The position numbers were made by a program, and so were the translations under genes. From the NCBI GenBank assembly GCA_949292785.1, contig CASFBK010000005.1:1-64000 (forward strand): 64,000 nucleotides of DNA, in the 5' to 3' direction. Below, piece after piece: positions 3,305-54,413 of the stretch (position 1 is its first letter; every line of letters starts with the position of its first letter). The notes below the pieces were generated by a model. The model saw only the letters and a program-made list of their open reading frames with translations, was not told the DNA's origin and did not search any database. This DNA comes from an uncultured Eubacteriales bacterium (lineage in GTDB: Bacteria > Bacillota > Clostridia > Lachnospirales > Lachnospiraceae).

Positions 3305-3316
3305 TAAAGGTTTGTG

Positions 3317-35905: not shown

Positions 35906-38900
35906 TTACCAGTTGTTTCCTTCGCCGCGTATTACCTTAAAGTCTGTACTCTGCTTTTCTCCATAGACAGAAGCAATTCCGGCATTATTGATTTTAACAT
36001 TTTCGAAAGAAGCTTCCCCAATACAGCTTCCCTGTCCCTGCTCTGCACAAAGAACGAACTTGATTCCGTAACGTGTCGGATTATTTACTGTAACATTTTC
36101 CAGACGGATATTGCTCATGCTGATTTTATTCGGATACATGGTCTGGAATTGTACTCCAAAGTATACCGGCTCGTTAATGTCTACATTTTTAATCACAATA
36201 TTTTGCAGCGCTCTGTCTCCGGCATAAATCCAGATAGCTCCAAAGTTCTGATAATCATTAATCTTATCATCTGCTCCCACACTGGTCCAGAAATCTCCAC
36301 CACAGCGTTCCAATGTCACACCGTCATATACGGTATCCTTATCTCCAAATCCCATTGTATTATAACCAAAGCTATAACTGCTTATTGTGATACCCGGATA
36401 GGTCAGCGTATCGGCTCCGTAAAGATTCTTGAACACATTGTCTGAACCACCGTAAACAGCAAATGCTGCTGCACGTCGTGTACACACTGCGGTAAGGTTC
36501 GAATACTCATTTCCTACGTTATAGGAGCCTCCTGCATCTGCTGCACTAAATAATGCAAACGCATCGTCTCCGGTTCCTCTTGCGTAACAGTTTGTAATCA
36601 GATTGTAGCTAGAGCCATTTGTCATATTTATACCGTCTGCAAAGGTATTCTTAATTCTACAATCCTTAAACGTATTATAGGAAGAATTGACGCCCCAATA
36701 CAAGCAGATAAAATGCTCTGCCCAGATGTTTTCTACGGTTACATTCTGCATTCCATTTCCATCAATGAATTTTCCCGGTCCGTCAATACGGTACTGATAG
36801 TTGCCCCAGGCAGACAGATTCTTAATGGTACTTCCATTTGCGGAAGAAGCAATATTAAATCCTACATCTGTGTTAGAACGATCCTGAGGTGCCACAAGCT
36901 TCGTGTACCATGGACCTGCGCCAATGATTTCCGTTGCACGTCCATACAGGAAAATCTTATTATCAATGGTCCATTCTCCTGCGGGAATAAAAATACCCGC
37001 TTTGGTATCATCCTGACGGAACTCGTTTAATGCCTGTTCGATTGACTTACTTTCTGAAACTTCTACATAGCGGTCTGGATCCGGATTTTCTGCTGCCGGC
37101 GCCACCGCTTCTGCCTCCAGCATATCTACATAAATCCAGGAAACATCTCCTGCATCCATCTGGATTCTAATCTTTGTTCCTGCCGGAAGTACCTCATCCA
37201 GCAAAAGATTTGCATCTTCATAAAGCCAATATGCCTTTTCCCCGGAATTATCATATCCCAGTCTCGTTAAAGTGGACGGTGTCGCATATACATAAGAATA
37301 TTTGGTACTTACATCAAAGGTTCCTTTTTTCACACCATCTGCATACATACTGATGGTTCCGGAGGTTCCCTCCTCAATCGCATTTCGCAGTACAAAGCCA
37401 TTGGCTGGTGCGCTTAATGTAAATTCTACATATTCACCTTCCCTATCCAAAAGTACCGCTGAACGTCCGGAAGCCTCTCCCGCATAATCTCCTAATACAT
37501 AATTTTTTTCTAAGGTAGTACCATTGGTCTTGTTTGCCTTATCTTCTGCTTCCATTACCGTAAACGGAAGATTTGCTCCCCGTCCGGAATAGATTGCAGT
37601 TGTCATTGTATTATTTGCCCGTTTTACTTCTACTTCATTCTCGTCTTCGGAAACACTACAAACCAGGGTATAATTTCCGTCCTGCGCTGTCCAGGTTCCC
37701 ATAGTCAGACTTTCCGCAGCGCCTGCTTCTAAGCTTCCGTTATAGGAAGCATGGTAGCTTTCCACTGTGTTTCCGGATGCATCCTTTAAGATAAGTGTTA
37801 CTGCATGTTCTCCTTCCTTTGATGCAATATTTCCCTGGTTTTTCAGATTAACGGTAAATGTTACTGTGTCTCCTGCGCTTGGATTGGATGGCAGATAGGA
37901 AACATACGGAACCAAATCAGCACTTTCCGTTTCCTCTACAGGTAAATCCGGACTTGGAGCCTTCACCCCATATACCTCCATCTCTGCGACCTGCCCGTTG
38001 GTGGCACCGCTGTTTGCTGTAAAGCGCAGCTGTACCTCATTTACTTTACCACTTACCGGAATGGTTACCTGATTTCCGGCAGCCGGATCAAATGTATAGT
38101 CTGCTGCTTCTTTTAACTGCTTATATTCGTTTTCTCCTTCCACACGTCCAAGTATCTCTATCCGCTGTGTACGTGCAGACCATACGCTGTCCGGGTTCAG
38201 CTTCAACACGATTTTTGTTAAATCAGCGTTTATCCCAAGATTCATGGTAAGAGTTCCCGGATAAGCTCCCGGCGCTCCCTCCCAATAGGTACTGGTATCA
38301 CCATCATTTACATTTTCTGCTTTGAAAATATGTACATAAGAGCTGGCAGAAACACTTTTTCCATCAGAAAGCTTTTCTTCCGTACCACTTTCCGTTCCGG
38401 TTTCGTCTCCATTTCCTTCGGTTTCTCCTTCATTTCCTCCGGTTTCTCCTTCGTTTCCTCCGGTTTCTCCTTCATTTCCTCCGGTTTCTCCTTCATTTCC
38501 TCCGGTTTCTCCAGTCTCTCCACCCTGATTATCATTATTGTATTTTCCCCCGGTGCTCGCATCCAGTTCACTGGTATCTCTTCTGCTTCCGTCACCGGTT
38601 TCCACTGTTACATCCTGCATATCCAACTGGAATCCGTTCTGCACCAGATACGGTTCCTGCTCTGTCATATTCTGAAGCTTCAGCCCATCTACCGACACAC
38701 TTCCGTTTCTGGTATAAACCATGATTGCCTTACCCGTATGCGGCTCAGTAAATCTTGATGTAGTCACTCCATCCAGACCTACTGTGTTAATCAAGGTATT
38801 ATGAAACTTAATTCCACTGAAACCACCACCATATCCAAGCTGAATTGCGCTTCTTTGGGTATTGTAAATCTGATTGTTTTCAAAGGTAATATTGCGGATT

Positions 38901-40945
38901 TCTCCAGTAGACGCCTCAAGGTCAATGGCTCCGCGCTCTCCACCGTAGCAGTCATTACTGGTACCACAGTTGACAATCACATTGTTAAAGAACTTAATTT
39001 CTTTTGTATTCTCAAAATGATATCCCGGGAATGTGGTATTTAAACGAATTCCGGAACCTTTAAATCCATCTTTGATATAGTTATTATAAATCTGATGTCC
39101 GTCTCCGCCGAAAATAGCAATTCCGCCTGCACGCCAGTTATTTTCAATCGTGTTATAACGGAACGTGTTATTTACTCCCATGGCGGCTCCCATGGTACTG
39201 TCCGGCCACACTGCTAAGCCATCATCCCCATTATTTCTGACACTACAATTCTGTACCGTAGAATTACTGGTTCCCTGACAGAAATTAACGCCATCTGCCA
39301 GATTATTGCGGATACGTCCATTTGCGATTACAAGCCCTGTGGTTGCCGTAATTGGTTCATGATAATCTCCAATCCAAAAGCCACACTCAAAGTGCTCTTC
39401 CCAAAAATCATGAATATATGTATTTGTTCCAAAGGTATCCATAAAACACTTATAGACTGCCTCCTGTCCGTAGCGGGAACGAAGCATAGAGCTGATATAT
39501 ACATTACAGAACTCTACATTTTCCCAATTATCAGTACCTGAGATACCACCGCTCTGTTTCTGGTCAGAGGTAAAGTGGATATTGGTGTGCCAGATACCGG
39601 CGCCTGTTATCAACATATTTTGAGCATCAATTCTCCAGATAGCTCCAAGGTCGAACTGACCTTCCGGAATATAAACATCCTTTCCATCTGTGTTTGCTTT
39701 CTCTACACATGCTTCAAATGCCGCCAAATCATCCTTTCCGTCATCCGCAACTGCTCCAAATTCTGTAACAGAATACGCGTTTTCAGGCTTTGTGATTGCT
39801 TCTGGTACCTCTTCTGTTTCAATAAAATCGACACCATATTCTAATGCGTCTCCTTTATTTTTTTGTATCTTAATGGTATCTCCTGCTTTTAAAGACTGAT
39901 TTAACTTAAAATGTACCTCATCAAAGCGAAATCTCGGCGCTCCTCCTGGTGCATCAGAAGGCTGGTCTCCATTAAAATACTGCCATGACCAATAGGAAGA
40001 AAGTGATACGGTCTGATCCTTTACCCCATTTACATAGACATCTAAAGAACCGTTCAATCCCATACCATCTGCAGAATCCGGCATAGTAAAGCGCATGGTG
40101 ACTCCATCTGCCGCTTCCTTTACGGTCCATTCCACATAAGCCCCATTGGATGGAAGTGCAACATATTGCTGGTTAGATGCTTCTGCTGCCGTCTTATTTA
40201 CATCGAAATCAAAGGCTTCACAAAGACGTGCATCTCCACCTCTTGCTGCATTTTCAGACTCATATCTGGTATAAGGAACCGTTGCTCCAAGTGTACCCTC
40301 TACCGGTTCTGGCACCACAATCTCATGTCCCGGCTTCTCTATCGGGTCTACCGGGTCTATTGGGTCTACCGGGTCCACCGGGTCCACTGGGTCTACCGGA
40401 TCCACCGGGTCTACCGGGTCTACCGGGTCTACCGGATCGGTAGTCCCTTCGGATTCAATTACCCATTTCGCACTATCCCATGCATCATAAATTGTGGAAC
40501 ACTCTACGTATTCATTCTGATTTTCTACATTCAGGTATCTGTCCCCCTGCCAGGAATTGCGAATCCGGCTCATACCTGCACCTGCATCTTCAATATACCA
40601 TCTTGCACTGTACCAGGTATCCTGAATAGAAGAACTTTCCACGTATTCCTTGAGATTTTCTATATTCAGATAATTTCCGGACTCCTGATTCTTAATTCTT
40701 ACAGAACCATCGCCTGCCTCTACCAGTTCCCACTTTGCACTCTCACCGACAGAATCCTTATCTGCATACTTCAGTTGTCCGTTTTCCTCATAGAGATACA
40801 TCTGCTTCCAGACATTCTTAATCATAACAGCAGAAGCTGCTGCTCTTACCTGAGGTACATCCAGACAAAACATTTGAAAAACCATTGCCACTGCCAACAC
40901 AATGGCAAAGCTTCTTCGTCCACACCCTTTTACATTCTTATTCAT
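35906..40945 (-). CDS. Secreted two-domain GH87 alpha-1,3-glucanase
   Basis: A 1679-residue secreted enzyme. Order: signal peptide (1-~37); fascin-like beta-trefoil (~40-165); PVD repeat linker (~168-203); CBM35/6-like sandwich (~220-385); GH87 parallel beta-helix 1 (~392-800); EG-rich linker (~805-850); F5/8 discoidin-like domain (~855-1000); CARDB-like domain (~1010-1115); CBM35/6-like sandwich (~1125-1275); beta-helix 2 (~1285-1679). Both helices keep ADG(V/I)N followed by GDD: D551, D574, D575 in the first and D1437, D1460, D1461 in the second. The +23/+24 spacing equals the three-Asp arrangement I recall for GH87. GH87 cuts alpha-1,3-glucan (mutan, fungal wall glucan) or nigeran. No LPxTG or SLH anchor is visible. 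No LacI operator is seen before it; it follows pgmB by 109 nt. Confidence 0.85.
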   Translation of the reverse strand: MNKNVKGCGRRSFAIVLAVAMVFQMFCLDVPQVRAAASAVMIKNVWKQMYLYEENGQLKYADKDSVGESAKWELVEAGDGSVRIKNQESGNYLNIENLKEYVESSSIQDTWYSARWYIEDAGAGMSRIRNSWQGDRYLNVENQNEYVECSTIYDAWDSAKWVIESEGTTDPVDPVDPVDPVDPVDPVDPVDPVDPIDPVDPIEKPGHEIVVPEPVEGTLGATVPYTRYESENAARGGDARLCEAFDFDVNKTAAEASNQQYVALPSNGAYVEWTVKEAADGVTMRFTMPDSADGMGLNGSLDVYVNGVKDQTVSLSSYWSWQYFNGDQPSDAPGGAPRFRFDEVHFKLNQSLKAGDTIKIQKNKGDALEYGVDFIETEEVPEAITKPENAYSVTEFGAVADDGKDDLAAFEACVEKANTDGKDVYIPEGQFDLGAIWRIDAQNMLITGAGIWHTNIHFTSDQKQSGGISGTDNWENVEFCNVYISSMLRSRYGQEAVYKCFMDTFGTNTYIHDFWEEHFECGFWIGDYHEPITATTGLVIANGRIRNNLADGVNFCQGTSNSTVQNCSVRNNGDDGLAVWPDSTMGAAMGVNNTFRYNTIENNWRAGGIAIFGGDGHQIYNNYIKDGFKGSGIRLNTTFPGYHFENTKEIKFFNNVIVNCGTSNDCYGGERGAIDLEASTGEIRNITFENNQIYNTQRSAIQLGYGGGFSGIKFHNTLINTVGLDGVTTSRFTEPHTGKAIMVYTRNGSVSVDGLKLQNMTEQEPYLVQNGFQLDMQDVTVETGDGSRRDTSELDASTGGKYNNDNQGGETGETGGNEGETGGNEGETGGNEGETGGNEGETEGNGDETGTESGTEEKLSDGKSVSASSYVHIFKAENVNDGDTSTYWEGAPGAYPGTLTMNLGINADLTKIVLKLNPDSVWSARTQRIEILGRVEGENEYKQLKEAADYTFDPAAGNQVTIPVSGKVNEVQLRFTANSGATNGQVAEMEVYGVKAPSPDLPVEETESADLVPYVSYLPSNPSAGDTVTFTVNLKNQGNIASKEGEHAVTLILKDASGNTVESYHASYNGSLEAGAAESLTMGTWTAQDGNYTLVCSVSEDENEVEVKRANNTMTTAIYSGRGANLPFTVMEAEDKANKTNGTTLEKNYVLGDYAGEASGRSAVLLDREGEYVEFTLSAPANGFVLRNAIEEGTSGTISMYADGVKKGTFDVSTKYSYVYATPSTLTRLGYDNSGEKAYWLYEDANLLLDEVLPAGTKIRIQMDAGDVSWIYVDMLEAEAVAPAAENPDPDRYVEVSESKSIEQALNEFRQDDTKAGIFIPAGEWTIDNKIFLYGRATEIIGAGPWYTKLVAPQDRSNTDVGFNIASSANGSTIKNLSAWGNYQYRIDGPGKFIDGNGMQNVTVENIWAEHFICLYWGVNSSYNTFKDCRIKNTFADGINMTNGSSYNLITNCYARGTGDDAFALFSAADAGGSYNVGNEYSNLTAVCTRRAAAFAVYGGSDNVFKNLYGADTLTYPGITISSYSFGYNTMGFGDKDTVYDGVTLERCGGDFWTSVGADDKINDYQNFGAIWIYAGDRALQNIVIKNVDINEPVYFGVQFQTMYPNKISMSNIRLENVTVNNPTRYGIKFVLCAEQGQGSCIGEASFENVKINNAGIASVYGEKQSTDFKVIRGEGNNW
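38400..38520. repeat. 21-bp tandem repeat coding the EG-rich linker
   Basis: About five copies of a 21-bp unit (plus strand TTCATTTCCTCCGGTTTCTCC) encode GGNEGET repeats joining the first catalytic domain to the discoidin-like domain. Near-identical units suggest copy-number change by slippage. Confidence 0.85.
40341..40440. repeat. 9-bp tandem repeat coding the PVD linker
   Basis: About eleven copies of a 9-bp unit (TCTACCGGG and variants) encode a (Pro-Val-Asp)n linker with a few Ile changes, between the beta-trefoil and the first CBM-like domain. Confidence 0.9.
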
Positions 40946-41054
40946 TTTTTACAACCCTTTCCTTTTTACATTTTTTGCTGCTACATCATTTCCTTTCTTT
41001 TTTTATTCACCCCCTTCTCCATATTAATTAAGTCTTTTCCTTCCTCTATTCCCC

Positions 41055-41705
41055 TTAAGCTTCTATGATTGTCTGCCAGTCAATGGCTTCATCGAGCCCT
41101 CTGGCTTCATATACCGCTTCTAAGGATTGATAATAGGGACCTACCCCCAAAGACTTCATGCCTGCTGCCTTAGCTGCTACAATTCCCGCCGCGGAATCTT
41201 CTACTACTACACACTCCTCCGGCGCTAATTCTAATTTTTTTGCCGCTACCAGAAATACCTCCGGGTCCGGCTTTGATTTGGTAATATCCAGCCCACAGCT
41301 TACTTTATCGATGAAATCTGCCAGTCCTGTTTTTTCAAGAATGACCGGTGTATTCTTGCTTACGGAGCCTACTGCAATTTTAAGCCCCCGTTTTCTCAAA
41401 TCAGCCAGGGTGTCAAAAGCTCCCGGCAGAACTGCGCTCTTATCCAGTTCCTGTAACAGTTCCTTGTAATAGTCATTTTTTCTTTCTGCCAGCGCTTCTT
41501 TTTCTTCCTGAGAATAGTTCTTACTGCCCTTTTGCAATACTACCTCCAAAGACTCCATACGGCTTACACCACGCTGTTTTTCATTATCCTCTTTGTTAAA
41601 CGCGGTAATGCCAAGCTCATCTGCAAGCTTTTTCCACGCTTTATAGTGAAGTTCATCTGTTGATACTAAAACACCATCCAAATCAAATATAATTCCTTTT
41701 ATCAT
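41055..41705 (-). CDS. pgmB: Beta-phosphoglucomutase
   Basis: A 216-residue HAD-superfamily enzyme: nucleophile motif IIFDLDGVLVSTDELHY at residues 4-20, cap residues EDNEKQRGVSRMESLE, motif II VGSVSKN, motif III Lys in SKPDPEVF and motif IV CVVVEDSAAGIVAAKAAGM. It converts beta-glucose-1-phosphate, the product of inverting GH65 phosphorylases, to glucose-6-phosphate. The ATG at 41,705 has GGAG 9 nt upstream; the frame extends to 41,756 through an Asn/Lys-rich leader that is not conserved. It diverges from lacI, with an operator between them. Confidence 0.93.
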   Translation of the reverse strand: MIKGIIFDLDGVLVSTDELHYKAWKKLADELGITAFNKEDNEKQRGVSRMESLEVVLQKGSKNYSQEEKEALAERKNDYYKELLQELDKSAVLPGAFDTLADLRKRGLKIAVGSVSKNTPVILEKTGLADFIDKVSCGLDITKSKPDPEVFLVAAKKLELAPEECVVVEDSAAGIVAAKAAGMKSLGVGPYYQSLEAVYEARGLDEAIDWQTIIEA

Positions 41706-41761
41706 TTCTTTTTTCTCCTTTTTGTTGTTATTATTTTTAATTATTTTTCTTCTCATTTTTA

Positions 41762-41813
41762 TTGTAAAAACTTATAAATCGTGTTATCTTTATAAGTAGT
41801 TTAACCTTAAACT
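41762..41813 (+). promoter_or_regulatory. lacI promoter with glucan-locus operator
   Basis: TTGTAA (41,762-41,767) and TATCTT (41,785-41,790) are 17 nt apart. The operator AGTTTAACCTTAAACT (41,798-41,813) covers the expected start site; it equals the importer operators except for one centre base. A second dyad CTTATAA...TTATAAG spans 41,771-41,796. The site can control both lacI and divergent pgmB. Confidence 0.75.
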
Positions 41814-41832
41814 TTTGGAAAGGAGTTTTCCC

Positions 41833-42846
41833 ATGGCTACGATTAAAGATATTGCCACACTCACCGGTGTAAGCTGTACTACCGTCTCTAATGTGATACA
41901 TGGAAAACCGGGGCGGGTATCTGCGGAAACCGTTGCAAAAATAGAACGTGCCATTCAGGAGCTGGGCTATGTACCTAATATGTCTGCCCGTTCTCTGGTA
42001 TCTAATTCCTCTAAAGTGATAGCACTTATCAATCATACCGTAACACGCAAGGATTCCAACTTTATGGATGACCCTTTTCAGGCATCCTTTGTTGGTATTA
42101 TTGAATCCATTTTACGTGAACATGGATATTACTTAATGGTCCGTACTGTAGATACTGCGAATGAACTGCTTACCTTTTTGCGGAACTGGAATATCGACGG
42201 ACTGTTCATTACAGGTATTTTCCGTGACAGCTTCTTTGATTCCCTTTTTTCATTGACGCTTCCCATTGTCTTTATTGACAGTTATGTACACCACCCTAAC
42301 TTCTGTAACGTAGGGTTAGAGGACTTTCAGGGCAGCTATACCGCTACCAAACACCTGATTGAAAAAGGTCATAAAAAAATTGCCTTTGCTTCTCCAAGCA
42401 TCCGTGACGGCGGCGTGTTACAGGAACGCTTTCTTGGATACCGCGCAGCATTGACGGAATACTCCATTCCCTTTGATCAAAACCTGGTCTTTGAATACGA
42501 AATGGACTTGGAATCCTGCAAAGCTCTTACTGCACAGCTTATACAGATTCCGGAGCTTACTGCTGTAGTCACCACTGCCGATATTATGGCTGCCGGCGTA
42601 ATGACCGGTCTGCGTGATGCCGGTGTCCGGGTACCGGATGACCTCTCCATTGTAGGCTTTGATGACCTGAACATCTCCCAGATGCTGACACCACCGCTTA
42701 CTACGATTCATCAGGATATGATGGAAAAGGGTCGGCTTGCCGTAAATTTTATGATACAAAAATTAGAAGGCAAGACACTTTCCCAAACAGAAATCGCCTT
42801 GCCCATACATCTGGTAGAGCGACAAAGTGTTAAATCGTTACTGTAA
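41833..42846 (+). CDS. LacI-family regulator of the alpha-glucan locus
   Basis: A 337-residue regulator: LacI-type helix-turn-helix and hinge (ATIKDIATLTGVSCTTVSNVIHGK...ARSLVSNSSKVIAL) at residues 2-65, then a periplasmic-binding-protein-like sensor domain with SIVGFDDLNISQMLTPPLTTI near the C-terminus. It is expected to bind the GTTTAACGTTAAAC-type sites and release them on binding a nigerose-type sugar or phosphosugar. The ATG at 41,833 has AAAGGAG 7 nt upstream; the operator lies just before that. Its stop overlaps the convergent phosphorylase gene by 9 nt. Confidence 0.9.
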   Translation: MATIKDIATLTGVSCTTVSNVIHGKPGRVSAETVAKIERAIQELGYVPNMSARSLVSNSSKVIALINHTVTRKDSNFMDDPFQASFVGIIESILREHGYYLMVRTVDTANELLTFLRNWNIDGLFITGIFRDSFFDSLFSLTLPIVFIDSYVHHPNFCNVGLEDFQGSYTATKHLIEKGHKKIAFASPSIRDGGVLQERFLGYRAALTEYSIPFDQNLVFEYEMDLESCKALTAQLIQIPELTAVVTTADIMAAGVMTGLRDAGVRVPDDLSIVGFDDLNISQMLTPPLTTIHQDMMEKGRLAVNFMIQKLEGKTLSQTEIALPIHLVERQSVKSLL

Positions 42847-45018
42847 ACACTCTACGTTAACAGAATCCTTTGTCTCTGTTATCTGATATAATTTATTCTG
42901 GTATCTTATATGGAATCTTAACTTTTTCCAGCTTTCCGGCAGTTTCGGATTCACTGTCACCTTACCATCTTTTAGCACGACACCGCCAAATCCGCTGACT
43001 GCCGTCATATAAGCTCCGCCAGCTGCAGCAGGATGTGTTCCTCCTATGTAGACGCTTCCTGCCCATTCTTTTCCACCGCCTGCCAGGTCTGCTTTGGCAG
43101 ATTTTAAAAAGAAGGGATATGCACATTCCGGTCTGCCGCATTTACAGAACAGTAAAGCATACATGCAGGCACTTAAGGAAGAGCCATGCTCCGTTCTCGG
43201 TTCATAATAATCCAGATTCTTTTGTAAAATCTCCTGCGAAAACTCTTCCGCAAACATTACCATCCACGTAACTACATCTGCCTGTTTGATTACCTGCGTA
43301 TGGGCAGCTACGCCGTAAGCGCCTCCCCAATATTCCTTTTCATGCAGAAGCCGGCTTCGTACCGTATCTACAGATACGTCTTCTAACTTTCGATATCCGT
43401 CGAACTGCTCCACAACACCATCTTTTTCCGGCTGGGGAAGATAGAGTCTGTCAGCATCCTCCTGATACCGCTTTGCTAATTCTTCCACCGGATAAGCGTT
43501 TGAAATCCTTTGTAACGTCTCTTCCTCTGCTTCCCGCAAAATCTTTACTGCTGTTTCAAAGGTAAACTTTGCCATCCGGTTGGTATAACCGTTATTGTTG
43601 ACACGCTCATGATATTCATCCGGTCCGATGACATCGTGAAGCTCATATACCTGGGTATGCGCTTTCTGTAACAGAAGAGAATCATAAAAAGCTGCACATT
43701 CTAAGATGGTCTCGATTCCGCCTTCCTTTAAAAGGCTGTCATCCCCTGTTACATTGGTATAACGCATAATGCCATACACAACGGCTGAAGAGATATGTAT
43801 CTGCTTATCTTTGAAGTAAGTACGCATCGGTCTTCCGGTAAAGACATCCGTTACATTGTAATCGGTACATGCATCATAGCCGCCTTCCTGGCTTTCCCAT
43901 GCATAAAATGCTCCCTTATGTCCATAGGCACGTGCCTTTTCCTGGGCTCCTGACAAGGTATCAATCCGGTATTTTAATAACGTTCTGGCTGTCTCCGGCT
44001 GTGTATACAGGAAATATTCCAGCATGAACATCTCGGTATCCCAGAACACTGCCCCCTTATAGGTCTGTCCTGACAGCCCTCTTGCACCGATAGACAGACT
44101 CTCCACATGTCTTGGTGCAATGCTTTGCAGCTGATAAAGGGAATAGTTCAATGCCTCCATGGCTTCCTTGTCGCCTTCGATTTCTACTTCGGCAGTTTTC
44201 CAATGCTCTTCCCATGCTTCTATCTGCTCTTTTTTACATGCCCCGTAACCCTTCTTAAAAGCGTTTCTTACTTCTTCTAACGCTGCCTTTTCCGGTGCGG
44301 TAACATCCTGAGTGGTATAAACTGCTGCTATCTTTTCTATTTTTACTTCTTTTTCCTTTTCTGATATAAAGGAGATATGATGAAGTATTTTTTTCTCCTG
44401 AACATCGACCCGCTGTTCATTGAAGAAGCTGACACCACACTGCTCTGCAACCGCCACCGTTTCGCCCTTTTCATGGGTCACTGCACCAGCAAGGATACAT
44501 TCCCCGCTTTCTGAAAGCGTAATCTCATCATAATGGGGTCCATGAATATCCCATACATCTGCATCAATTCCTGTGTATACCTCCACCTCTGCATGGAACG
44601 TGGTTTGTATTGTATACTGCATACAATATATATGTGGGCAAGTATAATGAGCAAAATGCTCGGAAATTACGGTCACTTCTCCGCGTCCTGTCTTCCATGT
44701 AGTGCTTCTTTTCACAATTCCGTGGCGGTAATCCAGTACCTGTTCATGCTTAGAGGCTTCTACCTCCGGCAGGATATAGTCCCTGCCGTCTACCCGTATT
44801 CGGGTATATAGAGCATTCGGGGCATTGAGCGGCTCACGCCACCCATCGCCCACTTTATCATAGATTCCTGCCAGATTGACTGCCGGCAGATGTTCCTTTT
44901 CATATTCTTCTAAGGTTCCCCGAATCCCCATATAACCATTTCCACAGATAAACTTGTTGCCATTGAGCGTAATATGCTCTTTAGAAAAGCCTTTCTCTCT
45001 GATTATCCAGTCTTTCAT
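42838..45018 (-). CDS. GH65 glycoside phosphorylase (nigerose/kojibiose type)
   Basis: A 726-residue cytosolic GH65 enzyme: N-terminal beta-sandwich (FICGNGYMGIRGTLEE), helical (alpha/alpha)6 barrel with the GAVFWDTEMFMLEYFLY motif, general acid E468 in HDVIGPDEYHERVNNNGYTN and the phosphate loop HGSSLSACMYALLF. It would split an alpha-glucosyl disaccharide with phosphate to beta-glucose-1-phosphate. The GH87 and pgmB context suggests an alpha-1,3 substrate (nigerose); the exact linkage cannot be read from sequence. The ATG at 45,018 has GAGAGG 6 nt upstream, inside the end of the previous gene, 2 nt after its stop. Confidence 0.85.
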   Translation of the reverse strand: MKDWIIREKGFSKEHITLNGNKFICGNGYMGIRGTLEEYEKEHLPAVNLAGIYDKVGDGWREPLNAPNALYTRIRVDGRDYILPEVEASKHEQVLDYRHGIVKRSTTWKTGRGEVTVISEHFAHYTCPHIYCMQYTIQTTFHAEVEVYTGIDADVWDIHGPHYDEITLSESGECILAGAVTHEKGETVAVAEQCGVSFFNEQRVDVQEKKILHHISFISEKEKEVKIEKIAAVYTTQDVTAPEKAALEEVRNAFKKGYGACKKEQIEAWEEHWKTAEVEIEGDKEAMEALNYSLYQLQSIAPRHVESLSIGARGLSGQTYKGAVFWDTEMFMLEYFLYTQPETARTLLKYRIDTLSGAQEKARAYGHKGAFYAWESQEGGYDACTDYNVTDVFTGRPMRTYFKDKQIHISSAVVYGIMRYTNVTGDDSLLKEGGIETILECAAFYDSLLLQKAHTQVYELHDVIGPDEYHERVNNNGYTNRMAKFTFETAVKILREAEEETLQRISNAYPVEELAKRYQEDADRLYLPQPEKDGVVEQFDGYRKLEDVSVDTVRSRLLHEKEYWGGAYGVAAHTQVIKQADVVTWMVMFAEEFSQEILQKNLDYYEPRTEHGSSLSACMYALLFCKCGRPECAYPFFLKSAKADLAGGGKEWAGSVYIGGTHPAAAGGAYMTAVSGFGGVVLKDGKVTVNPKLPESWKKLRFHIRYQNKLYQITETKDSVNVECLQ

Positions 45019-45020
45019 TG

Positions 45021-47330
45021 CTATCCTCTCCATTCCTGCGGGATTGTAATAGTTAATGGCGCCTGACTCAGCACATAGTCTTCTCCATATATTTTTACCG
45101 GAATTTCCTTATCTTCCATGGTGTAGAACTCAACCGTATTCTTTTTCACTGTCACAACGATTACATTATCCTCGTAACCGATACGGAAAGAATATCCCTG
45201 CCATCTTCCCGGAATCGAAGGATGGAATTCCAGCACTTCGGCATCAGAACGCATTCCGCCAAATCCATATACAATATTCATCCATGCTGCTGCAATGGAT
45301 GTGGTATGAATTCCCTCGCCGCTATTGCGGTTATAGTTATCCAAATCCATACGGGTGGCAAATCCGAAGAACTGATATGCCTCATCATGCTTTTTCAACT
45401 GAGACGCCAATATAGAGTGTACCGAAGGTGACAGGGAGCTTTCATGAATACATTTTGGTTCATAATATTCATAGTTTGCCTTCAGCTCTTCTTCTGTAAA
45501 TTCATGATTGAACAACAGCATCAGCATTAAAACATCCGGCTGTTTAATCATGTCGTTACGATAAATCCGGTCATAGGTCCAATGACTGTACAACGGGAAT
45601 TCCTCTGTTGGAATATCATCCACTTCCACATGAGGAAGATCGAAAAATCCTTCATGCTGTTCATACAGCTTCTTTTCCTCATCCTTTGGAATATACATAG
45701 CTTTTGCTATTTTCTTCCACTCTTCCCGCTCTGCATAGGTAAAATGCATTTCCTCTACGACACGTTGATACAGCGCTGCATTTTCCTTCTGCAGTTTTTC
45801 TAATACCTCTTCTGTATAGTTTAATGTAAACTGTCCCATGTAGTTGGTATAACAGTTGTTGTTTACCATCATCTGGAATTCATCCGGTCCCATGACTCCA
45901 TAATAGCCATATCTGCTCTTATCCGCAGACCAGTCGCCTCTGGTCGCCAGCATACGGCAGATTTCCACCAGCATGAAAACTCCATCGCTCTCTAAAAATT
46001 CTCTGTCCCTTGTAATCTTTTCATAGAGCCAGATTCCATATGCCACTGCAGTAGATGCCTGTAACTGTAAGCTGGCATGCTGCCAGAGATTACAGCATTC
46101 TTTTCCGCTGATGGTGGCAATGGGATAAAATGCTCCTTTGCAGTCTAATGCCTTTGCCCGTTCCTTTGCTTCCGGCAAGGTCATAGAACGGAACAACAGC
46201 AGATTCTTTGCTGCCTTGATATCATTGAAAAGGAAGAACGGAAGACAGTAGGTTTCCGTATCCCAAAAGGCATTTCCATTATATGCCTCTCCGGTCAGTC
46301 CTTTCGCTCCAATGTTATCGCCCACCTTTGCTCCGTGATAGGTCTGGAACATCTGGAAGATACAGAAACGGATTCCCTGCTGGTTTTCCTCATCTCCGTC
46401 AATTACAATATCCGAATGGTTCCAGACCCGCTGCCACCAGGCTTGATTTTCCTTTAACAAGGATTCGTAAGAAAAGCTTCGGCTCTTCTCTTTCTCCAAT
46501 CTTCCTGTTTCTAAGAAGCTGTCGGTCTGTTCTGCCACCTTGCCCTTACCGGACACATTAACTGCAATACGCACTGCCTCTTTGGGCTGATTTTTCGCTA
46601 ATTTTAATATAAATTTCTTGGTAACGTCCTGTTCTCCAAGGGAAACGTCCTCTTCGGATTCTGCATCCACCTGAAATCTACCGGAAGAATATACCAGCTG
46701 TTTTGTATTTTTTGTTCTTCCAAGCATTTCTATCTCATGCTCTGTGGCTCTGCTGCTTAAGCATTCCCAGTATGCCGTCTTATACATCTTATGAACTGTT
46801 CCGAAGTCTTCTCCCATGCACAGTTCTATCTCGCCATCAAAGTTCAGAGCTTCCATTGTAATTTTCTGAACACCTATCATGGAATGTTCCATGGACAGGA
46901 AACGTTCAAAGGTAAGCTTTATCTCTTTTTTCTGCTTTGTCTGCCATACGAAGCTTCTGGTAAGCAGTCCGCTTCGCATATCCAGCCGCCGGGTAAAATC
47001 TCGAATATCGCAAGCATTGATATCCAGCTGCTCACCATCTATAGAGATTCTGGTAAATAACCAGTCAACGGAATTTACCATGAACTGTGTGCAATCGGTA
47101 ACTCCCTTATAGGAGGAACCAACCTGCTTTTCCTGTTCATAGATACCGTTGAAATAGCTTCCTAACAGCGTATTTCCTCCGTATCCTTCTTCAAAGTATC
47201 CACGCACTCCCATATATTCATTTCCTAAAGAATATATGGATTCTGCTACTGTGCTGTAATCTTTATTAAATCCACATTCTATAATTTCCCAGGGGTCTAC
47301 CTGAAAATATTTATCTGCTATCTTTGCCAT
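45021..47330 (-). CDS. Second GH65 glycoside phosphorylase (alpha-glucan type)
   Basis: A 769-residue GH65 paralogue with the same fold: YSLGNEYMGVRGYFEEGYGG near residues 30-50, NAFWDTETYCLPFFLF, general acid E484 in YGVMGPDEFQMMVNNNCYTNY and phosphate loop HESSLSPSVHSILA. It shares only the motifs with the downstream 726-residue enzyme, so they are not recent copies. From memory, Clostridium phytofermentans has a pair of GH65 enzymes acting on nigerose and on longer alpha-1,3-oligoglucans; a similar division of labour is likely here. It follows the permease gene by 9 nt. Confidence 0.85.
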   Translation of the reverse strand: MAKIADKYFQVDPWEIIECGFNKDYSTVAESIYSLGNEYMGVRGYFEEGYGGNTLLGSYFNGIYEQEKQVGSSYKGVTDCTQFMVNSVDWLFTRISIDGEQLDINACDIRDFTRRLDMRSGLLTRSFVWQTKQKKEIKLTFERFLSMEHSMIGVQKITMEALNFDGEIELCMGEDFGTVHKMYKTAYWECLSSRATEHEIEMLGRTKNTKQLVYSSGRFQVDAESEEDVSLGEQDVTKKFILKLAKNQPKEAVRIAVNVSGKGKVAEQTDSFLETGRLEKEKSRSFSYESLLKENQAWWQRVWNHSDIVIDGDEENQQGIRFCIFQMFQTYHGAKVGDNIGAKGLTGEAYNGNAFWDTETYCLPFFLFNDIKAAKNLLLFRSMTLPEAKERAKALDCKGAFYPIATISGKECCNLWQHASLQLQASTAVAYGIWLYEKITRDREFLESDGVFMLVEICRMLATRGDWSADKSRYGYYGVMGPDEFQMMVNNNCYTNYMGQFTLNYTEEVLEKLQKENAALYQRVVEEMHFTYAEREEWKKIAKAMYIPKDEEKKLYEQHEGFFDLPHVEVDDIPTEEFPLYSHWTYDRIYRNDMIKQPDVLMLMLLFNHEFTEEELKANYEYYEPKCIHESSLSPSVHSILASQLKKHDEAYQFFGFATRMDLDNYNRNSGEGIHTTSIAAAWMNIVYGFGGMRSDAEVLEFHPSIPGRWQGYSFRIGYEDNVIVVTVKKNTVEFYTMEDKEIPVKIYGEDYVLSQAPLTITIPQEWRG

Positions 47331-47339
47331 GTTGTTCTC

Positions 47340-48275
47340 CTATCCTTTTACAGCTCCTGCCGCTGCGCCATCTGTAATCTGTTTCTGGAAGAATATAAAT
47401 AAAATAGTCGGTGGAATAATTGCAAATAATGCCGCTCTTAAGACGCTGACTGCATCTGTCGGTGTATCCTTAAATGAGAACAGCTTCACCATAACCGTCT
47501 CCATGCTGCTTCCATTCGGCCATTTTGCTCCATTCAATACCAGATATGGAAGCAGGAAATCAGACCATGCTGCTGTGATTGCGAAAATAACAACTACCAT
47601 GATAATTGGTTTTGATAATGGCAGCATGATTTTCGCAAATATCTGCAATACTCCTGCACCATCCAGTTTCGCTGCCTCCAACAGCTCCTTCGGTATATCC
47701 TCAAAGAATTCCTTAAATAACACCACATAAAAGGCATTGGCTCCAAATGCCAGCCACAATGGCAGGAAGCTCCGGTTCATTCCAATCAGGTTGATGTTAC
47801 GGAATACCGCAACAATCGAGGTGGTAGCCGGAATCATAAGACTCCACATAACCAGTACATTTGCTGCTTTATATCCCTTTGGCTTTAATACGGCAAAGCC
47901 ATATGCCAGTAAGCCATTGAAAATAACGGCACAAATTACACTGCCTGCTACAGAAATCAATGAGTTCATATAGTATTGTGTAAAGTGTAAGCTGTCCCAT
48001 GTAGTCTTAATCTTAGAAAAATCAAATTCACTTGGAAAAATCGTTACATTTCTTGTAAATTCCCGAATATCCTTAAAACTTGCCAAAAATACCCACAGAA
48101 CCGGAAATACACTGATAATTACAAAGATTGCACACACCAGCATAATCAGAATACAGGCAATCTTAACACTTGGTGACTTTACATCGTATCCTCTGATAGC
48201 TCCGTCTTTTTTGGCATCATATTTTCCAAAGAAGCCTACTCTTCGTCCTGTAGATTTTTTCTTTTCCTTTGCCAT
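47340..48275 (-). CDS. Sugar ABC transporter permease (MsmG/MalG type)
   Basis: A 311-residue permease with six membrane segments and an N-terminal cytosolic K/R-rich extension. The EAA motif reads EDIPKELLEAAKLDGAGVLQIFAKIMLPLSKPI near residues 195-227. It forms the second half of the oligosaccharide channel. It starts 14 nt after the other permease gene (GGAGGTG site). Confidence 0.93.
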   Translation of the reverse strand: MAKEKKKSTGRRVGFFGKYDAKKDGAIRGYDVKSPSVKIACILIMLVCAIFVIISVFPVLWVFLASFKDIREFTRNVTIFPSEFDFSKIKTTWDSLHFTQYYMNSLISVAGSVICAVIFNGLLAYGFAVLKPKGYKAANVLVMWSLMIPATTSIVAVFRNINLIGMNRSFLPLWLAFGANAFYVVLFKEFFEDIPKELLEAAKLDGAGVLQIFAKIMLPLSKPIIMVVVIFAITAAWSDFLLPYLVLNGAKWPNGSSMETVMVKLFSFKDTPTDAVSVLRAALFAIIPPTILFIFFQKQITDGAAAGAVKG

Positions 48276-48289
48276 ACTTCACGCACCTC

Positions 48290-49168
48290 CTACTCTTCCC
48301 TGGACTTTGTAAGTTTATTATATAAGCCGCTTAAAATAATCAGAATAGCACAAATCATAACCGACAATGCCGCCGCGTTCGGGAAGTTATAATCCCTGAA
48401 TGCATATGTATACATCTGCATCATCAAAGAGGTACTTGCACCATTTGGTCCGCCGTTTGTCATAACCATTGGTTCATATAAAATCTGGAACACGGATATC
48501 ACCTGTAAAATCAACATTGTCTTTGTAATACTTCCAATACTCGGCAATGTAATGTGACGAATTCGTTTCCAAATGCCTGCCCCGTCAATGGTTGCTGCTT
48601 CATAAAGGTCCGGACTGATTCCACTGATATTTGCCATATAAATCAAAGCAGTAGAACCGGCTCCTTTCCAGGTCAGCGCCACAACAATCAAAGGGATGGT
48701 CCATTTTGGATTGTTCAGCCATACCTGTGGCTCAATCCCAATCTTAGATAATAATATATTTAAAACACCAGTTTTTCCCGGAGTAAAGAAATAACTAAAA
48801 ATCCATATAGTAGCAAGACCAGGTACAATATTCGGGAAATAAACACCGGTTCTGAAAAGTCCTTTTAAGTGAACGGTTTCTGAAATCAAAGTACCCATAA
48901 TAATCGGAACTATAAATCCGATAACCAGAGACCACAATGTATATGCAATTGTATTTTTTAATGTTTGGAAAAACATTGGATGATTAATGACTGATTTGTA
49001 GTTTTCGAATCCCACAAATTTTACAAGTTCATAGCCTTTTGCGCTATAAAGCGAAATTCTGATATTTTCTAATAATGGTTCCCATACAAAAAAAGCAAAC
49101 AGGACAAGGGTCGGCAGCATTACTAACCAGCCTACCATATCGCTTTTTTTCCATTTCTTCTTTCCCAT
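48290..49168 (-). CDS. Sugar ABC transporter permease (MsmF/MalF type)
   Basis: A 292-residue permease with six membrane segments (WLVMLPTLVLFAFFVWEPLLENIRISLY at the N-terminus) and the EAA loop SPDLYEAATIDGAGIWKRIRHITLPSIG near residues 195-223. It pairs with the following permease. Start: ATG 49,168 has AAGGGGG at normal distance; ATG 49,174 is too close to that site. It is separated from the binding-protein gene by a long stem-loop. Confidence 0.92.
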   Translation of the reverse strand: MGKKKWKKSDMVGWLVMLPTLVLFAFFVWEPLLENIRISLYSAKGYELVKFVGFENYKSVINHPMFFQTLKNTIAYTLWSLVIGFIVPIIMGTLISETVHLKGLFRTGVYFPNIVPGLATIWIFSYFFTPGKTGVLNILLSKIGIEPQVWLNNPKWTIPLIVVALTWKGAGSTALIYMANISGISPDLYEAATIDGAGIWKRIRHITLPSIGSITKTMLILQVISVFQILYEPMVMTNGGPNGASTSLMMQMYTYAFRDYNFPNAAALSVMICAILIILSGLYNKLTKSREE

Positions 49169-49214
49169 TTCCATGCCCCCTTGTTTCTGCCTTTCGATAA
49201 TTCATCATATTTTA

Positions 49215-49280
49215 GGCCGCTGATTATAAGCATGCAAATATATGTATTAAATCCTTACTTGCCTTTTTATATCAGCGGCC
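49215..49280 (-). promoter_or_regulatory. Intercistronic stem-loop between binding-protein and permease genes
   Basis: Perfect arms GGCCGCTGAT (49,215-49,224) and ATCAGCGGCC (49,271-49,280) enclose 46 nt. No T-run follows on the minus strand. Such hairpins after binding-protein genes typically protect the upstream mRNA or partly stop transcription, giving more binding protein than permease. Confidence 0.75.
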
Positions 49281-49309
49281 ATCATTTGTCACTTTTTTCC
49301 TAACTCTGA

Positions 49310-50770
49310 TTAGTTGTAAGTTCCATCCAGCAATGCCTGATAGTTCTCATTTGCAGTATTCATAAGCTCTGTTACATCTGCATTTTCATCTGTAATAACT
49401 GCCTGTAATACCTTTGTAAGTTCAGCATACATATCCTGTGTTAATCCCGGTTCCTCCGCTCTTAAGTTACCTTCTACTTCGGTTGCATCAAAGTAAGACT
49501 GGAACATCTTCGGGTCAACGTTGGTGTATTCATCTACCACTTGCTGGTTTGCTTCTACAAACTCAGGAACATCCCATGCAGTCAATGATTTAATTACAGG
49601 AACGCCGTTGTCAACTCTGTTCTGAGCATCTGACTTCATACCTGCAACAGAAGCATCTGATACGACCGGAGCTTTCCCCATGATTTCAAGGTAATCCAAT
49701 GCGGCATTAATCTGCTCTGGTGTTGCATCTTTAGAGAACATATATGGTGTACCTCCATATAAGGAGTACTGTCCACCATCCCCTGCCGGGATTGGGCACA
49801 TTGCTAATTTGTCAACCGGTAATCCGTTTACCTGTGTTGGCTGATTCACAGCATCGTTTGCTGCAATATACATTGCTGCTGCACCAGTTCCTAATTTTGT
49901 AAATCCGGTACCCCAGTCTTCACTCATTGGGTCATCCGTTAATACCTTATAATCCCACTTTAAGGATTTTACATATTCCATTGCCGCAATCGCTTCCGGA
50001 GAATTCAGGTTGGAGGTATAGGTTCCATCCCCATTGTCAGTTACAAGGTTTGCACCAAATGCCCATGCAATGTTGGAGAAATGCCATCCGCCAGAATTAT
50101 CTTTTGCTAAGAGACAAAGACCTGCAGAACCTGTTTTGTCTTTAATTGTCTTACATGTCTCAGCCAGTTCATCCCATGTCTTAGGATAAATCGGATAACC
50201 ATCTTCATCTACGAGTCCTGCTTCTTCAAACAATTCTACGTTCATCATAAGACCTAATGCATATCCATCTCTAGGAATACCGTAGATTCTTCCATTCTCA
50301 TCAGAAAGAAGGTCTTTTACAGTCGGATTCATATCTGTCCAGCCTCTTTCCTCAAGATAATCTGTAATATCTGCTACCGCACCAGCTTTGATTAACTTCT
50401 GCGGTTCTGTATACCATGATTCAAAAATAGTCGGGCAGTTACCGGACTCTACCATTGGCATAAATGTATCTGTAGAATACTTATAGTATGCAGGTACACA
50501 ATCTACTTCCGGATGTAATTTTCCCATTTCCTCAACAAATCCCTTGTGCATCTCAATATCTTCGGTCAATGTGTCTTCCGGCCAGATACCAAGTGTCAGT
50601 GTAACTGTCTTATCCGTTTTCTCGCTGCCTTCATCTCCCTGCTCTGTTCCCTGGTTTCCATTATCTGATGTCTGGGCGTTATTTCCACCGCCGCAACCAG
50701 TCAGTAAGGATGCTGTCATAGTCATTCCAAGCAACAGGCTGAAAAATCTTTTCATTGTTTTCGTTTTCAT
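49310..50770 (-). CDS. Oligosaccharide ABC transporter binding lipoprotein
   Basis: A 486-residue family-1 binding lipoprotein: signal peptide with lipobox SLLTGCG (Cys near residue 26), a GNNAQTSDNGNQGTEQ spacer, then the mature domain with LTLGIWPEDTLTED, FESWYTEPQKLIKAGAVADI and GRIYGIPRDGYALGLMMNVELF. It captures oligosaccharides released by the GH87 enzyme. The ATG at 50,770 has GGGAG 8 nt upstream. It heads the importer-phosphorylase operon; no ATP-binding gene is included. Confidence 0.92.
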   Translation of the reverse strand: MKTKTMKRFFSLLLGMTMTASLLTGCGGGNNAQTSDNGNQGTEQGDEGSEKTDKTVTLTLGIWPEDTLTEDIEMHKGFVEEMGKLHPEVDCVPAYYKYSTDTFMPMVESGNCPTIFESWYTEPQKLIKAGAVADITDYLEERGWTDMNPTVKDLLSDENGRIYGIPRDGYALGLMMNVELFEEAGLVDEDGYPIYPKTWDELAETCKTIKDKTGSAGLCLLAKDNSGGWHFSNIAWAFGANLVTDNGDGTYTSNLNSPEAIAAMEYVKSLKWDYKVLTDDPMSEDWGTGFTKLGTGAAAMYIAANDAVNQPTQVNGLPVDKLAMCPIPAGDGGQYSLYGGTPYMFSKDATPEQINAALDYLEIMGKAPVVSDASVAGMKSDAQNRVDNGVPVIKSLTAWDVPEFVEANQQVVDEYTNVDPKMFQSYFDATEVEGNLRAEEPGLTQDMYAELTKVLQAVITDENADVTELMNTANENYQALLDGTYN

Positions 50771-50804
50771 AGTTTCTTCTCCCTTCTGAAAATAAAAATT
50801 TTTA

Positions 50805-50818
50805 GGTTTAACGTTAAA
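50805..50818. promoter_or_regulatory. Operator O2 in the importer leader
   Basis: Perfect 14-bp palindrome GTTTAACGTTAAAC, 35 nt upstream of the binding-protein start codon and 109 bp (centre to centre) from O1. Binding here could block elongation or allow looping with O1. Confidence 0.8.
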
Positions 50819-50913
50819 CTTCCTATAAAAAAATATGCACGTTTTTCCTATATAAACATACCATTTTTCGCCGTTTTCTCCTGCTTTTCTTCGCTTCCGT
50901 CTTTTTGTATCAC

Positions 50914-50958
50914 GTTTAACGTTAAACTTATATTAGCATTTATACCTTTTGTTGTCAA
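50914..50958 (-). promoter_or_regulatory. Importer promoter with operator O1
   Basis: On the minus strand TTGACA (50,953-50,958) and TAATAT (50,930-50,935) are exactly 17 nt apart. The perfect palindrome GTTTAACGTTAAAC (50,914-50,927) begins 2 nt after the -10 box and covers the start site. This is a textbook repressor-controlled promoter, matching the site before lacI. Confidence 0.88.
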
Positions 50959-53904: not shown

Positions 53905-54303
53905 TTATTCACCACCCAGTATGCGGCTCACACATCCAAGCACAGTATCCTTCACAAATGGTTTCGTAATAAAGTCCAATGCCCCTTTTTCCATTCCCTG
54001 CTTCTCCACCTCCGGGTCATCTTCCCCTGTAAGAAATACAACGGGTATCTTTTGGTATGCTTCCTCTGCTTTTAACCGTTCTATCACTTCAAAGCCATCC
54101 ATTTCCGGCATACGCAAATCAAGTAAAATCAAATCTATCCTGCTTTTTTTCAAAAACTCCAGTGCTTCCGCTCCCGAGGTCACACAGCTTACCTGAAATA
54201 TCTTTCCTAATATCATTTCCACAATCCGAAGATTCATAAAATCATCATCCACTACAAGAATATGCGCCGGTGTCTTATCACAATCATTCGATACAAAAGA
54301 CAT
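53905..54303 (-). CDS. Single-domain response regulator
   Basis: A 132-residue receiver domain: ILVVDDDFMNLRIVE with the acidic pair, phospho-acceptor Asp in LILLDLRMPEMDGFEVIERL, conserved Thr in VVFLTGEDD and Lys in FITKPF. No output domain, so it would relay phosphate or act by protein contact (CheY/Spo0F-like), likely to or from the adjacent hybrid kinase. The ATG at 54,303 follows GGAGGGAG; the frame is open to 54,339. Confidence 0.92.
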   Translation of the reverse strand: MSFVSNDCDKTPAHILVVDDDFMNLRIVEMILGKIFQVSCVTSGAEALEFLKKSRIDLILLDLRMPEMDGFEVIERLKAEEAYQKIPVVFLTGEDDPEVEKQGMEKGALDFITKPFVKDTVLGCVSRILGGE

Positions 54304-54413
54304 ATTTCTCCCTCCTCTATAAGTCTTAAAATATTTCATCCATCGTTTTTTATTTTCAGCATTATTTATTATTTTACCAAAAACATAACCAAAAAGAAAC
54401 TACTTAATAGACG

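Follow-up and report, generated by a model that had tools for sequence, protein, structure and literature searches.

A predicted LacI-controlled regulon for alpha-1,3-glucan use in an uncultured Lachnospiraceae bacterium

In a 64-kb stretch from the genome of an uncultured bacterium of the family Lachnospiraceae (positions 1 to 64,000 of contig CASFBK010000005.1, hereafter the window), eight genes encode a secreted GH87 enzyme, the three components of an ATP-binding cassette (ABC) importer for sugars, two GH65 phosphorylases, a beta-phosphoglucomutase (bPGM) and a LacI-family regulator. Judged from sequence comparison, this locus is very probably the core of a LacI-controlled regulon for the capture, depolymerisation, import and phosphorolysis of alpha-1,3-glucan, a polymer of the fungal wall and of dental plaque. 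All eight genes named in an initial annotation of the window are present as intact open reading frames (ORFs) (Table 1). The alpha-1,3-glucan function proposed there gains support from the co-occurrence of GH87 with the GH65 pair, from a common operator at GH87 genes unlinked to the importer and from the F/A/I/Q fingerprint of the first phosphorylase, GH65a. The locus is not self-contained, as had been proposed, since a fourth operator lies on another contig and no ABC ATPase is encoded among the locus genes.

What was a guess on one gene cluster becomes a testable regulon with a defined operator, common to Lachnospiraceae and relatives of several habitats. If correct, it would explain how anaerobic Clostridia live on alpha-1,3-glucan of fungal walls or plaque, would correct a current "GH28 pectinase" annotation and would supply new enzymes and binding modules for degradation of this polymer. 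The operator sequence can also be used to assign unlinked depolymerases to a pathway.

The predicted shared operator

The palindrome GTTTAACGTTAAAC occurs, at one mismatch or fewer, in four places of the 3.65-Mb genome: two ahead of the importer, one between the LacI and bPGM genes and one, an exact copy on contig C12, 91 bp ahead of gene P0007, the first gene of a second operon; the reversed sequence, used as a control, was found nowhere. A first-order model built from the window predicts 0.012 exact sites and, with one mismatch allowed, 0.60 sites, against 3 and 4 observed. In a survey of 80 named loci (the best 80 of 276 GH65a relatives), we identified 111 sites in 43 loci, many of them at the importer or LacI promoter, and again none for the reversed control. 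From its gene position, the LacI protein is the likely binder of this sequence.

The strongest evidence for the regulon, which we regard as decisive at the level of sequence, comes from genomes carrying GH87 outside the importer/GH65 operon. Exact sites were identified 461 and 548 bp ahead of the GH87 ORF in L. phytofermentans KNHs2131 (G127), 98 and 190 bp ahead in G206, 96 bp ahead in G099 and 142 bp ahead in G156. In G297 an exact site stands 144 bp ahead of a run encoding a surface protein, a 482-residue protein and GH87; G402 carries one 99 bp ahead of a second tandem GH87 gene, and in G403 (locus L105) a copy with one mismatch precedes GH87. Taking G099, G127, G156, G206 and G297 together, 13 of 13 exact sites are located ahead of a solute-binding gene or of a GH87 gene or run. 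For a distant GH87 type (about 33% identity; L073, L075 and L078) no operator was found in the fetched stretches.

Some operator-associated genes lie outside these classes. In four Enterococcus loci (L134, L143, L150 and L160), paired exact operators lie ahead of the gene for another solute-binding protein, itself upstream of the GH65 pair, and the nearby LacI is only 32-35% identical. A metagenome-assembled genome (MAG) from goat gut carries an exact operator 58 bp ahead of a 692-residue gene (L093:4161-6239), located upstream of the importer. Behind an operator and directly ahead of the importer gene, we also noted a second family of secreted-looking proteins of about 215 residues (L091:5814-6464, L096:5471-6142 and L103:5508-6143), for which no convincing Pfam match was obtained and of which the L091 member carries a PKTG tail.

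Surface enzymes and phosphorylases

The GH87 gene product is 1679 residues long, with a signal-peptide-like start, a ricin-type module, and a pair of GH87 catalytic units that have discoidin and CARDB modules between them. The secreted GH87 gene of the initial annotation stands, with two catalytic units in place of the single one that had been noticed. Both units show full-length GH87 homology, with Pfam CatAgl_D1 and CatAgl_D2 matching in two stretches each, and in the alignments both retain the catalytic Asp triad (D1067/D1090/D1091 of Agl-KA), for which the functional roles of the three residues have been reported (PMC6814745). The two units are 27% identical to each other over 440 residues. 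Agl-KA (5zru) and the 6k0m enzyme, which we take to be Agl-FH1 of P. glycanilyticus, each cover the length of one unit, all three Asp being present, so that the window protein combines both types in a single chain. Cleavage of alpha-1,3-glucan by this protein is predicted from the full-length units and intact triads. The arrangement of two GH87 units flanking discoidin and CARDB modules was found in one other genome, G402 (1859 residues; no ricin match).

On contig C12 the genes of the second operon run on one strand in the order P0007, P0008, a discoidin protein and P0010. The product of P0008 is a membrane-anchored enzyme classed by Pfam as GH28. In its structural model both domains, an N-terminal beta-sandwich and a beta-helix as in isopullulanase and dextranase, correspond to those of GH49 alpha-glucanases, and in a Foldseek search GH49 ranked first. 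The GH49 matches cover 424-428 residues, against 295 and 302 for the GH28 structures 3jur and 5olp. Sequence identity to GH49 isopullulanase (3wwg/1wmr) and dextranases (6nzs, 1ogm) is 19-22%. In a profile of 22 aligned relatives, a set without P0008 itself (which is 59-60% identical to L124), the three Asp are retained; Pfam GH49 matched 1 of the 22 (E 0.063), and this profile does not place the group in GH49.

P0007 and P0010, which carry sortase-type tails, flank the pair of GH49-like and discoidin genes behind the operator (L162:7691-11989, outside the window). They contain a domain of about 115 residues that resembles a carbohydrate-binding module (CBM) and has no assigned family; it was detected in 3 of the 387 family genomes searched, a set that may not include all ten genomes with the GH65 pair, and all three carry that pair. 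A pullulanase-like GH13 gene with PUD and CBM48 domains (L162:2600-5236) is located a few genes from P0008, but none of the four genomic operator sites belongs to it. In another relative (G007), a 920-residue protein with ricin, CARDB and GH28/GH49-like domains is encoded beside a GH87 gene (L072:10665-13427) and independently links the two types of enzyme.

For GH65a, membership of GH65 and the catalytic acid in GPDE were confirmed. Specificity was compared at CsKP positions 64/392/394/402/416/585, where the verified alpha-1,3-oligoglucan phosphorylase has FAITQA (PMC8537180). GH65a agrees in F, A, I and Q, position 416 being alignment-dependent, and has N at 402 and T at 585; across 9 orthologues the fingerprint is [FY]-A-[IL]-x-Q-[TSA]. 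In a table of PMC8950772, Cphy_3313 is entered as a nigerose phosphorylase and Cphy_3314 as an alpha-1,3-oligoglucan phosphorylase. The gene order in KNHs2131 (L111), namely discoidin, GH28-annotated gene, bPGM, LacI, GH65b and GH65a, fits Cphy 3309-3314; with the GH28-annotated gene as Cphy_3310, the second phosphorylase, GH65b, would be the counterpart of Cphy_3313 (nigerose) and GH65a that of Cphy_3314 (oligoglucan). The GH65b assignment is the weaker of the two because its nearest relative in the PDB, 4ktr, is listed in the same table as a glucosylglycerol phosphorylase.

The gene families present suggest a pathway of extracellular cutting, import, stepwise phosphorolysis and a mutase step. 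The tandem GH87 protein, held on the insoluble polymer by its ricin-type and discoidin modules, would cut alpha-1,3-glucan outside the cell, and the wall-anchored CBM-like proteins, the membrane-anchored GH49-like enzyme and the discoidin protein would capture the products and trim them further at the surface. Nigero-oligosaccharides may then be taken up by the ABC importer, its ATPase being presumably encoded elsewhere. As suggested by fingerprint and gene order, GH65a would shorten alpha-1,3-oligosaccharides and GH65b would split nigerose, giving beta-glucose 1-phosphate and one glucose per chain, and bPGM would convert the phosphate to glucose-6-phosphate. LacI would repress through GTTTAACGTTAAAC, a palindrome seen to be conserved, until an oligosaccharide signal is present. 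By the logic of this pathway an n-mer yields n-1 beta-glucose 1-phosphate and one free glucose that requires a kinase; with this glucose and the ATP-driven import, the earlier statement that no ATP is spent on sugar phosphorylation is too strong.

We see an even chance for a broader proposal, an undescribed surface apparatus for alpha-1,3-glucan. In it the GH49-like beta-helix enzymes with a membrane anchor, at present annotated as GH28 pectinases, would constitute a GH family of their own with alpha-1,3-glucan or nigero-oligosaccharides as substrate, the CBM-like modules of the P0007/P0010 type, anchored by sortase, would be a new family that binds the same polymer and the tandem GH87 enzymes would be the secreted counterpart, all under one LacI operator usable to find alpha-1,3-glucan genes blind.

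Distribution among relatives and alternative readings

In a sample of 397 genomes from the larger family, relatives of GH65a with more than 50% identity were found in 10 genomes, and those of GH65b in the same 10. GH87 above the Pfam cut-off was present in 9 of the 397, that is, in 7 of the 10 genomes with the GH65 pair against 2 of the 387 others (Fisher 1.5e-11, or 4.5e-10 without the own genome, with genomes treated as independent and relatedness uncorrected); one further match, in G249, lies below the cut-off and was not counted. The GH28-annotated gene occurs in 9 of the 397 genomes, all carrying the GH65 pair. Among the 80 named loci GH65b is nearby in 75, and 40 hold the orthologous importer together with GH65b; of these 40, LacI is nearby in 34 and bPGM in 28. 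The order solute-binding protein, two permeases, GH65a, GH65b, divergent LacI and bPGM was observed in Kineothrix (L087), Anaerocolumna (L094 and L109), L. phytofermentans KNHs2131 and many MAGs. A search for GH87 beside GH65, suggested in the initial annotation, did find such neighbours: 8 of the 80 loci, MAGs of Planctomycetes and Actinomycetota included, have GH87 no more than 10 kb from GH65a, and GH87 follows bPGM in L123 (Caproiciproducens) and LacI in L105 (Pseudobutyrivibrio MAG). The GH28-annotated, GH49-like gene is nearby in 28 of the 80.

These tallies follow bit-score cut-offs of our choice and are lower bounds for neighbours, since many loci end at contig ends and GH65a is hidden behind longer ORFs of the opposite strand in L097 and L126. 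The two surveys are not independent, because they apparently share genomes (L061/G241 with L089, L062/G024 with L109, L066/G127 with L111, L064/G297 with L115 and L067/G206 with L124).

Several observations weigh against a regulon for alpha-1,3-glucan. GH87 is found without the GH65 pair in 2 of 9 genomes (G178 and G366), the pair without GH87 in 3 of 10 (G024, G241 and G355), and of the 40 loci that hold the importer and the GH65 pair, 15 show no GH87 and no GH28-annotated gene in the neighbourhood. The window GH87 gene lacks its own operator and follows bPGM after a gap of 109 bp, so that read-through has to be assumed; no terminator-like stem lies within the gap, and one is located at 40908-40885, barely inside the GH87 reading frame. 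In G007, which has both the GH65 pair and GH87, no LacI match stands beside the GH65 genes and no operator was found in the fetched stretches, a single one-mismatch site being located elsewhere in the genome. Some operator matches fall within ORFs, one-mismatch sites without a target gene occur in G127 (several) and G297 (one, on C3), and the reversed control gave 1-4 matches in four of seven relatives. The Cphy correspondence is based on KNHs2131 gene order and locus-tag spacing, not on ISDg sequences.

The operon might instead serve another alpha-glucoside, such as kojibiose, glucosylglycerol, glucosyl-rhamnose or a mixed alpha-1,3/1,4 or alpha-1,3/1,6 glucan (e.g. nigeran or alternan), with GH87 as one of several feeding enzymes. 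In addition to its nearest solved structure, 4ktr, GH65b shares E at positions 64 and 392 with the kojibiose phosphorylase motif EEAPxx; the GH28-annotated gene is commoner nearby than GH87 (28 vs 8 loci), GH49 enzymes act, by the names of database entries, on dextran or pullulan, and the characterised GH87 members are described as mutanases or mycodextranases (PMC13421300). We consider this reading unlikely, given the operator (one mismatch or fewer) at GH87 genes in seven other genomes, a GH65a fingerprint closest to alpha-1,3-oligoglucan phosphorylase among those given in PMC8537180, and the listing of the L. phytofermentans pair for nigerose and alpha-1,3-oligoglucan (PMC8950772). That GH87 is a weapon for fungal antagonism or biofilm clearing, adjacent to sugar genes by accident, would fit the hydrolysis of fungal-wall alpha-1,3-glucan by GH87 enzymes (PMC10696023, PMC6814745) and is very improbable in view of an operator common to GH87, importer and phosphorylases across genomes.

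A small but real chance is left to a pectin reading, in which the operon of the GH28-annotated and discoidin genes is a homogalacturonan system sharing the operator by chance and the regulon serves a wider response to plant walls. The GHG His and the RIK Arg/Lys are functional residues in GH28. Neither is conserved in the 22-relative profile, which reads "dlaqs" and "visv" there (8ikx alignment, gapped, and alignment-dependent at GHG). Yet Pfam GH28 matched 22 of 22 relatives at E <= 0.1 (best 3.8e-15), and by structural Z alone 3jur (33.8) and 5olp (33.1) tie with GH49. Cphy3310, the predicted counterpart, is reported to be active on homogalacturonan with enhancement by an esterase (PMC4230839), and is listed as a rhamnogalacturonase (PMC3557285); this too counts against our assignment. 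The restriction of the gene to genomes with the GH65 pair, and in the structural models the longer GH49 coverage and top Foldseek rank, argue against the pectin reading.

Known systems and features of the locus

In L. phytofermentans, a GH87 gene has been described in the vicinity of the gene for a GH65 nigerose phosphorylase, along with ABC and LacI genes, and the cluster has been proposed to act in nigerose degradation (PMC9061262). Both the idea of the pathway and the proximity of GH87 to GH65 are already in print, and the importer and the GH65 pair occur jointly in 40 of the 80 loci; the claim of a new combination is not supported. That cluster (Cphy_1874, Cphy_1877 GH31, GH87, ABC, LacI) shares with the window locus GH87, a GH65 alpha-1,3 phosphorylase, the importer and LacI; it has GH31_u1, whereas the window locus has paired GH65 genes, bPGM, the tandem GH87 and the operator. 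The adjacent GH65 pair is shared with Cphy_3313/Cphy_3314, tabulated in PMC8950772; in contrast to that region, our genome has the "GH28"/discoidin pair on another contig and the tandem GH87 after bPGM. A putative polysaccharide utilisation locus of Prevotella melaninogenica (GH87, GH97, GH99; PMC13421300) likewise represents operon-level use of alpha-1,3-glucan with GH87, but is TonB-dependent, and the main text of that paper contains neither "GH65" nor "phosphorylase". For the tandem GH87, the operator, the surface modules and the GH49-like enzyme with these operons, no published description was found in a search with most subscription journals outside its coverage. The shared operator, the tandem GH87, the GH49-like reassignment and the extra surface parts appear to be undescribed, and the interest rests on the regulon and its surface enzymes rather than on the gene list of the locus.

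Table 1. Features of the predicted alpha-1,3-glucan locus in the window
Feature	Position	Strand	Evidence
Predicted LacI operator GTTTAACGTTAAAC, importer promoter, distal copy	50914..50927	.	Exact palindrome
Predicted LacI operator GTTTAACGTTAAAC, importer promoter, proximal copy	50806..50819	.	Exact palindrome
Predicted LacI operator GTTTAACCTTAAAC, between bPGM and LacI	41799..41812	.	1 mismatch
Secreted tandem GH87, predicted alpha-1,3-glucanase	35906..40945	-	Signal peptide (by eye), ricin B, GH87 (Agl-KA type), discoidin, CARDB, GH87 (6k0m type)
GH87 catalytic unit 1, Agl-KA type (aa 218-777)	38615..40294	-	5zru E 1.6e-225; D551, D574, D575
GH87 catalytic unit 2, 6k0m type (aa 1113-1679)	35909..37609	-	6k0m E 2.5e-296; D1437, D1460, D1461
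bPGM	41055..41756	-	TIGR01990 245 bits, cut-off 189.4
LacI-family regulator, divergent	41815..42846	+	LacI HTH E 1.4e-17, Peripla_BP_3 E 1.3e-32; likely start ATG 41833
GH65b, predicted nigerose phosphorylase (Cphy_3313 counterpart by gene order)	42838..45033	-	Glyco_hydro_65m E 2.7e-98; fingerprint E-E-Q-T-Y-A; nearest PDB chain 4ktr
GH65a, predicted alpha-1,3-oligoglucan phosphorylase (Cphy_3314 counterpart by gene order)	45021..47330	-	Glyco_hydro_65m E 1e-112; fingerprint F-A-I-N-Q-T vs FAITQA
ABC permease, MalG/UgpE type	47340..48275	-	BPD_transp_1 E 5.4e-10
ABC permease, MalF/UgpA type	48290..49174	-	BPD_transp_1 E 2.3e-14
ABC solute-binding lipoprotein for oligosaccharide	49310..50770	-	SBP_bac_1 E 4e-32; orthologues first in equivalent operon of relatives
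Possible importer promoter TTGACA-17-TAATAT with TG, adjoining distal operator	50930..50958	-	Consensus match alone; whole promoter scan below shuffle mean (29 vs 36.6)

The Pfam GH65 and GH87 models gave no further match in the own genome (3.65 Mb, 30 contigs) at E <= 0.001. Directly upstream of the importer, with no operator ahead of them and hence probably unrelated to the regulon, are located the genes for a hybrid sensor kinase with HisKA, receiver and Hpt domains (51050-53902) and for a separate receiver protein (53905-54339).

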